Shown here in pieces: positions 11,735 through 27,306 of a stretch of DNA of 64,000 nt (positions are counted from its first letter, which is position 1; the number at the start of each line of letters is the position of its first letter). Location of the stretch: NCBI GenBank assembly GCA_013298715.1, contig JAAFIQ010000015.1, positions 1-64,000 on the forward strand, given 5' to 3'. A program made the translations under genes and the position numbers. The stretch is from Bacteroidota bacterium. Lineage in GTDB: Bacteria; Bacteroidota; Bacteroidia; B-17B0; Aurantibacillaceae. The notes below the pieces were generated by a model. It saw only the letters and a program-made list of their open reading frames with translations, ran no database searches and was not told the origin of the DNA.

Positions 11735-12820
11735 ATGAAGTATATAGTTTTATTGTGGGCAATTTGTTTTTCAAGTTTTGCTTTTGCACAATCTCAAGAC
11801 TCTTTACTAATTAAAAAGAAAAATAGTAATTTTCTGCGAGGTTTACCAATTTTGTATTACTTACCCGAAACACGTTTTGTGTTTGGTGCTATAGGTTTGG
11901 CGAGTTTTAATTTTAAAAAAGATTCAATAAACGCGTTCAAATCTACCGTAAGTTTAGGTTTTATATACACTCAAAACAAACAAATAACAGCCTATTTACC
12001 GTATAACCTTTTTTTTAAGAATGGAAAATACAGGTTGTATGGCGATGCCTCGTATTACAAGTTTAATTATTTGTTTTATGGCATTGGCAACACCAATCCA
12101 ATCAATTATTCAGAGTTGTATGATATAGAGCATCCTAGGTTGCGGTTGACTTTTTTAATGCGAATTTTTTCAAATTTATACGGAGGATTGAAATATTCTT
12201 TTGATAATTATACTTTAGGGAATTTTAAAGAGGGTGGACAGTTGATGAGCGATACAATTTTTGGAAGTAGAGGAGGGGTTACATCAGGTGTTGCCGCTGT
12301 ATTTTTATATGATAGTAGAAATGATAATTTTTTTCCAACAAAAGGCTGGTTTAGTGAATTAATTTTTCATAGAGATGATAAACTATTTGGAAGCTCGTTC
12401 AATTTTAATAAATTGAGTATTGATGTAAGCAAGTATTTTAATTTTAAAAATAATATTTTTGCAATTAATTACCACGCAGTTTTTTCTGAAGATAGATTAC
12501 CGTTTTTTCAAATGGCTGCAATGGGCGGAATTCGCTATATGCGTGGTTTCTATGAGGCAAGGTACAGAGATAATAATTCACAAATTGCACAGTTAGAATT
12601 TAGACGCATGTTTAAAAACCGATTCGGATTTGTTGTATTTGGTGGTGTTGGGCAAGTAAATAGTTCTTTAAGCAAATTTAGTAAAGATAATTGGCGCTAC
12701 ACGTATGGCACGGGTTTGCGTTACAAATTCAGTAAAAACCAAAATGCAAATTTAAGGTTAGATTTTGCTATTGGGAATAACAAGCTATTAGCCTATTTTA
12801 CCATAGGTGAGGCGTTTTAA
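11735..12820 (+). CDS. Omp85/BamA-type outer membrane barrel protein
   Basis: 361 residues with a signal peptide (about 1-18, ending AFAQ). The rest reads as a 16-strand-type barrel: alternating aromatic strands, GGVTSGVAAVFLYDSRNDNFFPTKGWF-like motif near residues 180-205 and the conserved lid-lock region GGIRYMRGFYEARYRD near 262-277, both typical of the bacterial surface antigen (D15) domain. No POTRA domain precedes it, so it is the short BamA C-terminal form rather than BamA. It is the last gene of the ctp-folA operon. Substrate or partner unknown. Confidence 0.8.
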   Translation: MKYIVLLWAICFSSFAFAQSQDSLLIKKKNSNFLRGLPILYYLPETRFVFGAIGLASFNFKKDSINAFKSTVSLGFIYTQNKQITAYLPYNLFFKNGKYRLYGDASYYKFNYLFYGIGNTNPINYSELYDIEHPRLRLTFLMRIFSNLYGGLKYSFDNYTLGNFKEGGQLMSDTIFGSRGGVTSGVAAVFLYDSRNDNFFPTKGWFSELIFHRDDKLFGSSFNFNKLSIDVSKYFNFKNNIFAINYHAVFSEDRLPFFQMAAMGGIRYMRGFYEARYRDNNSQIAQLEFRRMFKNRFGFVVFGGVGQVNSSLSKFSKDNWRYTYGTGLRYKFSKNQNANLRLDFAIGNNKLLAYFTIGEAF

Positions 12821-12962
12821 CCGCAATTAGACAGTAAAAGTCGAGTTATCGACGAACTATCTGTCTTATTGCGGGTTATTCCCGACATAAAGTCGGGACA
12901 GGCTCCGATTTAGCAACTGTTAGAATTTCTGACAAAGGATTTTTTTGGAAATCCTTACAGTT
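12821..12962 (+). other. strongly structured non-coding stretch (candidate RNA or repeat)
   Basis: Starts at the base after the barrel gene's stop. Hairpin 1: CCGCAATTAGACAG (12821-12834) pairs with CTGTCTTATTGCGG (12861-12874) with one mismatch and encloses GTCGA-GTTA-TCGAC (12840-12853). Hairpin 2: CCCGAC (12881-12886) / GTCGGG (12892-12897). Hairpin 3: AAGGATTT (12935-12942) / AAATCCTT (12949-12956), itself enclosed by AACTGT (12915-12920) / ACAGTT (12957-12962). It is followed by a terminator. No reading frame is present. It may be a small RNA, a structured 3' UTR or a genomic repeat. Confidence 0.5.
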
Positions 12963-12971
12963 GATTAATCG

Positions 12972-13002
12972 AAGACAGTTCTTTTTTTGAACTGTCTTTT
13001 TG
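12972..13002 (+). terminator. rho-independent terminator
   Basis: Perfect 10-base stem AAGACAGTTC (12972-12981) / GAACTGTCTT (12989-12998) with a T7 loop and a trailing T run. It ends the ctp-folA-barrel transcript together with the structured stretch before it. Part of its 3' arm (CTGTCTT-like) repeats the 3' arm of hairpin 1 upstream. Confidence 0.85.
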
Positions 13003-13097
13003 GGTTTTAATCCTTAACAACGGCATGTTGATTATTAAAAACGAGTTCTTAAAATTGAGCACCTGCAATTCTTAAATTCGAGAAGCAAATTTTTACA

Positions 13098-13955
13098 ATG
13101 AAACAAAATAAATTTAAAGCTTCAGGTGTTACAGTAATTATTAGTTTGTCGCTGGTATTATTTATGTTAGGTGCTTTGGGTTTATTGGTAATTAACGCGA
13201 ACAAACTTTCTACACATTTTAAAGAAAACATTGGCTTCCAAATTTATTTAAAAGATACCGCCACATCAGCTCAAATTGATGCTTTAATACAAGAGCTTAA
13301 TAGTGCCCCATTTGCAAAAGGTACCACCTTATTAAATAAAGAACAAGCGGCAGAAAAATTGAAAAAAGATTTGGGTGAAGATTTTATTTCATTTCTTGGT
13401 GCCAATCCGCTTTTAAATTCGTTAGATGTAAAAATAAAAGCTGATTATGCGAATACTGATACATTGCAGATTGTAGAGAAACAACTCTTACAAAAATCGT
13501 ATGTTAAGGAGGTAGTTTACCAAAAAGACATGATTAATTCTTTAAATAAAAATACAAAAGCAATTGCCATTTTTATTTTAATTTTTTGTGGTGCTTTATT
13601 AATTGTGGCTATTGCGCTTATAAACAACACAATTCGCTTATCTATTTATTCACAACGCTTTTTAATTAGAACCATGTACCTTGTTGGTGCCACACGTTCG
13701 TTTATAAGCAAACCATTTATTTATAAAGGAATAAGGCAAGGTGTAATTGCAGGAATAATTGCTGGAGCATTGCTTGCCGGATTTATAGTATTAAGTGTAA
13801 AATTTATACCAGAATTATTACAGGTTCAAAACGAAAATGTACTATTGATTTTGTTTGTTGGCATTTTACTTTTAGGAATAATTATTTCTGCATTTAGCGC
13901 TTTATTATCTGTGTTGCGCTTTTTAAAATTAAAAACCAGCGATTTGTATTTTTAG
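13098..13955 (+). CDS. ftsX: cell division protein FtsX
   Basis: 285-residue membrane protein with FtsX topology: transmembrane helix 1 at about 12-34, a large periplasmic domain (about 36-155, with FQIYLKDTATSAQI and KSYVKEVVYQKDM), then three helices at about 157-178, 210-232 and 248-270. It pairs with the ATPase FtsE to couple divisome state to murein hydrolases; no ftsE is present here, which is normal in Bacteroidota. The genes that often follow ftsX in the phylum (DUF3098, uppP, truB) are missing; a convergent lipoprotein gene follows. Confidence 0.9.
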   Translation: MKQNKFKASGVTVIISLSLVLFMLGALGLLVINANKLSTHFKENIGFQIYLKDTATSAQIDALIQELNSAPFAKGTTLLNKEQAAEKLKKDLGEDFISFLGANPLLNSLDVKIKADYANTDTLQIVEKQLLQKSYVKEVVYQKDMINSLNKNTKAIAIFILIFCGALLIVAIALINNTIRLSIYSQRFLIRTMYLVGATRSFISKPFIYKGIRQGVIAGIIAGALLAGFIVLSVKFIPELLQVQNENVLLILFVGILLLGIIISAFSALLSVLRFLKLKTSDLYF

Positions 13956-25719: not shown

Positions 25720-27306
25720 ATGCGTAGATTTACTTTACTTTCAATTTTATTCTTTATCTTCAAGTCTGCCAACTCTCAATGCACCGTTACTACTATTAGC
25801 GGGGATTATACAGTTGCTTCAAGCATTATACTTTCAGGCACTTACAGTGTTACTGGGAAGTTTGTTATACCACAAGGTGTAACAGTTTTTGTAAATAAAT
25901 ATGCAACCAATTCTTGTGGTAAATTAGAAATTTACGCTAAGTCTGCAATTATAAATGGCGTAATAAATGCTGATGATGCAGGTTATACAGGTGGCTTAGG
26001 TGGAGTTGCTGGTACAAGTGTAACTAGTATTACTGGTGATGCCGTTGCTTTAACAGCTTGTAATAACAAAGATAATACAGGTCAAGTAACCGTAGAGGCT
26101 GGTAAAGGTGGTTCTGCGGGTAGTGGGCCAGGCGCAGGTTTGGGTGGTGCTAATGGTGTAAGTGGTTCTGGGCCTAAACAACAATGTTTAAATAATAATG
26201 ATGAGGCAGGTATGATTGGCTCTGGTGGTGGCGGCGGTGGCGGCGCTGGCGCAAGCTATGGCGGTGTTGGTTCAAGCGGAGGTAATGGAGGAAATGGTAC
26301 AAGTTCTTATACAGCAACTGGCGCAAACGTTTCAACCGGTTTTGCCGTTGTACAAGGTACTGGCGGATTAGGTGGCACTGCAGCTGCAATCTATGGCACT
26401 AGTGGCGGTACTGAAATTGATTTAGGTAGCGGTGGTGCAGGTGCCGGTGGTGGTGCTCGGTCGTTTGCGCTCGGTTTAAATGGAAACAAAGGCGGTAACG
26501 GTGGCGGTATGGTTAAAATTGTAGTACAAGATACTTTAATTTTAAATGGAACAATTTCGGCAAATGGCAGCAACGGACTAAATGGCGGTAATGGCGGTGA
26601 TGGCGGCGTTACAGCAAAATGCTGTACTGATGGATGCGATGACTGCGGAGAGGCTACTTTAGCTTGTGGAGCTGGTGGAGGTTCGGGCAGTGGCGCAGGC
26701 AGTGGTGGTGGAATTTTGTTACAATCAACTAATTATTTGAACATTGTAGGTACTTTAAATGCTAAAGGTGGTAATGGTGGCAATGGCGGAAATAAAGGGA
26801 ATGGTGTAAGTTGCAATTATAGTGCAACATTTTGTGGTACACAAGCGTTAATTAGCGGTAATGGTCAGTTAGGAAATTTAGGTGGTGCTGGCGGTGGCGG
26901 AAGAATTAAAATTTTCGCAACTAGTTGCCAAACAAATACAATAAACCCTGTGACATCTGTGTTAGGTGGAACGAGCGCTGTTAACGCGGCATCAGGTACA
27001 TATAGTGTTATTTGTAATTTGAATGTTTCTCTATCAGAGTATACAAAGTACCATGAATTAACTGTTTATCCTAATCCAGCAAAAGATAAATTAGTTGTAA
27101 AATTCAAATTTCCTCAATATTTAAAAGCAAGTGATGCTAAGATTTATGTATTCGATATAAACGGAAAACAAAGTCATGTTCAAGATTGTATTCTAAATAC
27201 TAACGAAGAAGAAACTATAAGCTTGGAAAGCTTATCAAAGGGCGTTTATTTTATAAAATTAATTTCAAGTGAAGTAACCGTGGTACAAAAGTTTATTAAA
27301 GAATAA
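25720..27306 (+). CDS. glycine-rich T9SS-secreted protein
   Basis: 528 residues. Signal peptide 1-19 (ending ANSQ), an N-terminal beta region (about 20-90), then some 330 residues rich in Gly, Ser, Asn and Ala with runs such as GSGGGGGGGAGASYGG and KGGNGGNGGNKGNG interrupted by hydrophobic strands (VVQDTLILNGTISANGS). A Cys-rich patch (CCTDGCDDCGEATLACG) lies near residues 302-318. The last 85 residues are a T9SS sorting domain (LTVYPNPAKDKLVVKFKF). It resembles glycine-rich parallel-beta surface proteins. It lies six bases after the phosphatase and four before phoD. Confidence 0.75.
   Translation: MRRFTLLSILFFIFKSANSQCTVTTISGDYTVASSIILSGTYSVTGKFVIPQGVTVFVNKYATNSCGKLEIYAKSAIINGVINADDAGYTGGLGGVAGTSVTSITGDAVALTACNNKDNTGQVTVEAGKGGSAGSGPGAGLGGANGVSGSGPKQQCLNNNDEAGMIGSGGGGGGGAGASYGGVGSSGGNGGNGTSSYTATGANVSTGFAVVQGTGGLGGTAAAIYGTSGGTEIDLGSGGAGAGGGARSFALGLNGNKGGNGGGMVKIVVQDTLILNGTISANGSNGLNGGNGGDGGVTAKCCTDGCDDCGEATLACGAGGGSGSGAGSGGGILLQSTNYLNIVGTLNAKGGNGGNGGNKGNGVSCNYSATFCGTQALISGNGQLGNLGGAGGGGRIKIFATSCQTNTINPVTSVLGGTSAVNAASGTYSVICNLNVSLSEYTKYHELTVYPNPAKDKLVVKFKFPQYLKASDAKIYVFDINGKQSHVQDCILNTNEEETISLESLSKGVYFIKLISSEVTVVQKFIKE

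Follow-up and report, generated by a model that had tools for sequence, protein, structure and literature searches.

An intergenic chain of hairpins downstream of an Omp85-like gene in a Bacteroidota genome is very probably a non-autonomous DNA transposon (MITE) spread by an IS1380-family transposase

The stretch of DNA analysed here (the window) comprises positions 1 to 64,000 of the forward strand of contig JAAFIQ010000015.1 from a Bacteroidota bacterium, and within it an Omp85-superfamily gene (the 'barrel gene' of the initial annotation) is followed by ftsX, with a hairpin-rich segment between the two (Table 1). From its letters alone the initial annotation had described this segment, at 12821-13002, as a chain of four hairpins ending in a textbook terminator and had proposed a small RNA or a mobile intergenic repeat. 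Alignment of 29 copies of the segment with their flanks, which gives sharp boundaries of the form CC...GGG, keeps the start at 12821 but moves the end, the unit reaching 13004 and lying between two copies of TTTTAA (12815-12820 and 13005-13010); a covariance model of the family matches 12821-13005. At the family boundary the duplication of the window copy matches at four of five letters and is perfect only as a hexamer, because the right end of this copy has lost one base. The initial annotation had also noted the lack of a reading frame, and the window copy has no long ORF. A comparison for an empty orthologous site covered the Omp85-like/ftsX site with flanks of up to about 1.5 kb and revealed none; by tblastn the Omp85-like gene adjoins ftsX at one of 30 loci, that of the window's own genome.

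Table 1. Features of the hairpin-rich segment and its neighbours in the window
Feature	Position	Strand	Basis or remark
Omp85-superfamily gene, outside the element	11735-12820	+	PF01103, E 1.9e-11
Left target-site duplicate TTTTAA	12815-12820	.	Sequence; ends with the stop codon of the Omp85-like gene
Whole element (very probably a MITE), 184 bp	12821-13004	+ (arbitrary: orientation of the family alignment)	Ends set by alignment of 29 copies
Left terminal repeat CCGCAATTAGACAGT	12821-12835	+	13 of 15 bases identical to the end of the IS1380-family IS in G082
HP1	12821-12874	+	Fold; formed by the left terminal repeat and an inverted copy of it
HP1 inner stem	12840-12844/12849-12853	+	Covaries between lineages
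HP2	12875-12903	+	Optional hairpin, in 11 of 40 aligned copies
HP3	12906-12971	+	Long central hairpin; 8 of 17 pairs of the main helix with two-sided changes among copies
HP4	12972-12998	+	Right-end hairpin AAGACAGTTC/GAACTGTCTT; 3' arm belongs to the right terminal repeat
Right terminal repeat	12991-13004	-	Family consensus CCCTAAACAGACAGT on the - strand; window copy has one base fewer
Right target-site duplicate TTTTAA	13005-13010	.	Sequence; same hexamer as at 12815-12820
FtsX gene, outside the element	13098-13955	+	PF18075, E 4e-16

The segment 12821-13002 has a folding energy of -74.6 kcal/mol (z -9.2), a value that none of 200 dinucleotide shuffles reached (mean -37.0, sd 4.1), and not one of 2128 sliding windows of 182 nt, taken along the + strand of the 64 kb at a step of 30, was as stable, which bears out both the hairpin chain and the earlier statement that pairing here is denser than in the rest of the window. 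The reverse strand is equally foldable (z -9.9); since both strands fold about equally, as inverted DNA repeats do, no single strand or transcript is pointed to. HP2 was considered as an independent repeat and rejected, all seven matches to its sequence in the window's genome (at most three mismatches) being inside copies of the same family. A terminator-like site is indeed predicted, at 12971-12999, but the 'textbook' quality given to it rests on a T-run directly after HP4 that is found in two of the 40 aligned copies, the window copy included, where it coincides with the right terminal repeat that is one base short. By chance this predicted site may end transcripts of the Omp85-like gene. 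Elsewhere in the window, the gene for a glycine-rich 528-aa protein at 25720-27306 reaches a G+C content of about 0.50, compared with 0.29-0.40 in its surroundings, and also hosts several of the window's next most stable predicted folds.

The BLASTN comparison that the initial annotation had proposed gave 36 rows in the window's own genome (G000), which were merged by hand to 33 loci by removal of two opposite-strand echoes and one split copy (two of the 33 lie at contig ends and are possibly halves of one copy), and matches in 7 of 40 genomes of the genus. Of 87 genomes from the taxonomic family, 14, in three of ten genera, were matched by a covariance model built from 40 copies, with 31 rows each in G000 and G007, 29 in G019, 18 each in G001 and G029 and fewer in the others; these counts include some opposite-strand echoes and split copies, and the search filters were strict, so weak copies may escape. 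No match to the element was found in a plasmid collection or a phage collection, and an exact 20-base scan of a collection of named genomes hit two uncultured Bacteroidetes MAGs, in four stretches. A typical copy is about 160-190 bp long. Divergence from the consensus runs from 2% to 22% over 18 aligned G000 copies (5.6% for the window copy), which gives them the look of many ages. None of 33 copies (24 of the 33 G000 loci and nine from G007) is inside an ORF of 90 aa or more.

Several copies carry, by eye, nested insertions of other inverted-repeat elements. Within or beside copies of the family lies one such element, about 240-270 bp long and with ends TAGGGTTCACTCAAAA (L048 2516-2952, L052 2537-2955 and the flanks of L037 and L032), which probably represents a second MITE family. 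Other inverted-repeat insertions, with ends like TATACCAAAT and TAATACCAAATATACATA, likewise seen by eye, interrupt copies at L056 2560-3050, L045, L051 and L049, and one insertion of this group may join the ends of contigs C24 and C10. In G007, L058, L059 and L061 have in common an alternative 3' continuation of more than 40 bases that replaces the usual GGG end.

The terminal repeats follow the pattern CC..AA..AGACAGT, and the CTGTCTT-type sequence that had been noticed in arms of the first and last hairpins is real, being the inner part of both repeats. The consensus ends CCGCAATTAGACAGT and CCCTAAACAGACAGT are alike at 11 of 15 positions, and end-to-end pairing over the 40 copies (407 of 582 cells) is imperfect, with fixed mismatches. 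For a target duplication of 5 bp, 109 of 120 letters match in 24 copies where 93.1 are expected, with none of 20000 shuffles as high, and in 14 of the 24 the duplication is perfect; this set excludes five of the 29 copies that have replaced ends, and with all 29 the match (121 of 145 letters against 105.8) is still above every shuffle. Lengths 2-4 and 7-9 give no signal and length 6 gives a weaker one (p 0.0015). The right boundary was set by hand, and when it is placed one base earlier in most copies the signal moves from length 5 to length 6. The target is AT-rich, TTTAA, TTAAA or a near variant. Two further sets show duplications as well: copies from other species (15 copies, 65 of 75 letters against 58.0, p 0.0012) and the sister subfamily described below (16 copies, 74 of 80 against 67.3, p 0.0013). 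The pattern by which this subfamily and some of the other-species copies were located contains TTWAA, so the target preference is partly selected, while the comparison of left with right duplicate is less affected. The AGACAGT motif is absent from the right end of eight copies, seven in G029 (L187, L188, two in L189, L018, L025 and L013) and one in G031 (L014), and five of these eight have a perfect 5-bp duplication. AGACAGT thus seems dispensable at the right end of these copies, and the 15-bp end match discussed below is not the whole recognition rule.

The sister subfamily comprises 16 elements (L133-L148) of 184-270 bp, duplicates included, from G003, G007, G020, G025 and G030, with symmetrical ends CCGTAAATAGACAGT; most fold as one long imperfect hairpin, with energies as low as -106 kcal/mol. 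Matches to the end pattern occur in at least 22 of the 40 genomes of the genus, many as pairs about 165-270 bp apart. The perfect end CCGTAAATAGACAGT, sought in 87 genomes, is present in seven, and on contig C44 of one of them (G082, position 1634) it lies 62 bp from the PF13701 match of an independently found IS1380-family transposase. This contig carries an IS of 1433 bp with CCGTAAATAGACAGT at both ends and one open frame of 438 aa, which scores 256 bits against the NCBIfam model NF033539 (IS1380 family; cut-off 180) and also matches PF13701. The IS end, which like those of the MITE starts with CC, is identical to the sister MITE end at 15 of 15 bases and to each consensus end of the 12821-13004 family at 13 of 15. 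Among the 454,012 15-mers of the window and 31 loci of its own genome, nine match the IS end at 13 or more positions; all nine are ends of copies of the 12821-13004 family and seven adjoin TTTAA or TTAAA. That level is not reached by many other ends in resident copies, for example the right end of the window copy. By BLAST, similarity between the IS and the MITEs is confined to the ends. Pieces of related IS ends are located at the edges of contigs in G048 and G080, and G086 has a stretch of a related transposase. The G082 contig stops two bases beyond the right end of the IS, so the target duplication of that IS is unreadable; 5-bp duplications like those seen here are published for the IS1380-family elements ISEcp1 and IS1247 (PMC2887853, PMC3281130).

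There are no PF13701 matches in G000, a 46-contig assembly that may lack repeated IS copies, and the matching IS is therefore known only from other genera of the taxonomic family. Another IS1380 element from the genus (G019, L193) has different ends and a 5-bp duplication TTCAA, and when IS1380 loci were scanned for CC ends with near-equal pentamers the clear cases had other ends, such as CCCARATTATGCAT in G019; the G082 IS escapes such a scan, as its contig stops at the right end. Pair scans around forty unpaired end matches, up to about 4 kb each, gave no convincing end pair around a transposase, and Pfam identified no transposase among 10 ORFs from nine of these 40 loci. Three DDE_Tnp_1 loci in G000 were considered as partners and rejected, two having other inverted repeats and one no clear repeats. 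The 17-base IS end also occurs exactly in two viral contigs (L223 4403 and L224 604); with no partner end and unrelated sequence, these matches were put down to chance. In one cyanobacterium IS1380 elements and MITEs have both been catalogued, with no link drawn between them in the part of the account available to us (PMC3542288), and a literature search, outside which most subscription journals lay, showed no IS1380-linked MITE in Bacteroidota among the matches listed.

From the dispersed copies, the terminal inverted repeats, the 5-bp target duplications and the IS with matching ends we consider it very probable that 12821-13004 is a non-autonomous DNA transposon (MITE) spread in trans by an IS1380-family DDE transposase. 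The same four observations support the mobile intergenic repeat offered in the initial annotation. The transposase would recognize CC..AA..AGACAGT ends and insert the element into AT-rich intergenic TTTAA or TTAAA sites, leaving a 5-bp duplication; in the window the insertion would have hit the stop codon of the Omp85-like gene, which the duplicated TTTTAA would have preserved.

The conservation of the hairpins was analysed in an alignment of 40 of the 45 copies with both ends located, from six genomes (18 from G000, eight from G007, three from G001, two from G019, seven from G029 and two from G031), L035, L037, L065, the first copy in L189 and L017 being excluded because of insertions, replaced ends or a position at the edge of a contig. 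The RNAalifold consensus has 26 pairs, of which 16 show two-sided changes. For the full named structure 89.2% of cells are paired, against 83.3 in shuffles and 32.5-40.3 in slid versions, with 148 double-change cells (50.5 shuffled, 27-48 slid) and a covariation score of 0.196 (0.110 shuffled, with none of 500 as high; 0.041-0.063 slid); pairs that have a double change number 26 of 59, more than in shuffles (17.4) but not more than in slid versions (18-27), and the shuffle statistics ignore the relatedness of the copies. In the inner stem of HP1 one pair is C-G in 17 copies and U-A in 17 and another is A-U in 13, G-C in 11 and U-A in eight, and the outer part of HP3 also covaries. Compensatory changes, whose absence from homologues the initial annotation had named as evidence against a structured RNA, are thus plentiful between lineages; within single copies no constraint is visible. 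Private changes, those confined to one copy, are equally frequent in stems and loops, both in G000 (74/1872 against 37/1019, p 0.76) and in G007 (16/797 against 12/497, p 0.7), and only these rates were used, as the outcome of a one-sided keep/break control is fixed by the base change and the control is uninformative. Shared changes are rarer in stems (130/1872 against 120/1019 in G000; 20/797 against 44/497 in G007), but they are not independent and their p values were not relied on.

Changes common to several copies are taken as inherited from source copies. On our reading, either these source copies were under a need to fold or template switching kept the arms of their inverted repeats matched, while inserted copies decay freely; as the stems covary between lineages, yet private mutations are equal in stems and loops, it seems to be the moving lineage, and not the resident copies, for which the fold mattered. 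In a stronger version the element could move only with its hairpins at and between the ends folded, be it as DNA or as RNA, and structure would be what an IS1380-type system selects. This version is suggested by the two-sided stem changes between species and by the replacement hairpin in several of the copies that lack AGACAGT. When the last 42 bases of these eight divergent right ends, for which HP4 is poorly aligned, were folded alone, two gave a strong hairpin of other sequence (-11.4 and -11.5 kcal/mol) and six a weak one (-2.5 to -7.4), and the six weak hairpins lower the odds of this stronger version, which we regard as rather unlikely.

The same fold and covariation could be those of a structured small RNA or regulatory 3' element, transcribed by upstream read-through or from its own promoter. 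The stability of the fold, the proportion of paired cells, the covariation score above all 500 shuffles and the terminator-like site speak for such an RNA. Set against them, the orientation of the 33 copies relative to neighbouring ORFs of at least 90 aa (same 24 G000 loci and nine G007 copies as above) is mixed, 11 lying in the same sense as both neighbours, nine against both, 10 between convergent and three between divergent genes; private mutations are equal in stems and loops; the T-run is confined to two of 40 copies; and no Rfam family matches at its gathering score (one match below threshold, mir-786 at 26 bits against 93, is taken as chance). No sigma-70-like site was found on the + strand from 11700 to the element, although Bacteroidota promoters use another consensus. 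With no fixed sense, no difference between stems and loops and so rare a tail, the RNA reading was set aside as very unlikely.

Movement of the MITE by another transposase family that leaves 5-bp AT-rich duplications deserves mention, as Tn3-derived miniature elements (TIME elements) are described as giving them (PMC4133298). We give this little credence, the ends here beginning with CC and the sister subfamily having 15 of 15 bases in common with an IS1380-family IS. Tn3 ends begin GGGG. Least credible of all is that these are REP/REPIN-type palindromes moved by a Y1 (RAYT) transposase, for although the element is palindromic, intergenic and multi-copy and the genome has three Y1 transposase matches, it has terminal repeats with 5-bp target duplications, which REPs are not known to have, its ends match those of an IS1380-family IS, and no copy was found by BLAST in the Y1 loci (L067-L069, up to about 1.5 kb on each side).

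The proposed assignment to an IS1380-mobilized MITE places the family among known elements. Like the bacterial MITEs QMITE2, Chunjie (PMC10969869) and MITEAba12, it is short, non-coding and mostly intergenic, with terminal repeats, target duplications and stable stem-loops in a predicted transcript; it differs from what is described for them in that each end is an arm of its own hairpin, with a separate central hairpin and stems that covary between species. From the IS in G082 it differs in having no transposase gene, in its length of 184 bp compared with 1433 bp, in left and right ends that have diverged differently and in a similarity to the IS that is restricted to the ends. With REP/REPIN and BOX sequences it shares the character of dispersed intergenic palindromes; it is distinguished from them by its terminal repeats with target duplications, its IS1380 counterpart and the absence of copies beside Y1 genes. 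The family is ordinary in kind and well anchored, its unusual side being the covarying multi-hairpin interior.

We infer that an IS1380-type transposase moved the 12821-13004 subfamily, that its resident copies do nothing for the host, and that the persistence of the hairpins reflects either a benefit to the moving lineage or mutual correction of the inverted repeats at replication. One transposon family, tied to a named transposase family, then accounts for about thirty structured intergenic sites in this genome, and these should not be mistaken for small-RNA genes. Strong covariation and a very stable fold are the usual marks of a functional RNA, and the family cautions that a transposable element can show both although nothing keeps its resident copies from decaying. 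Covariation among species also raises a testable question, namely whether folded ends are needed by a DDE transposase system.
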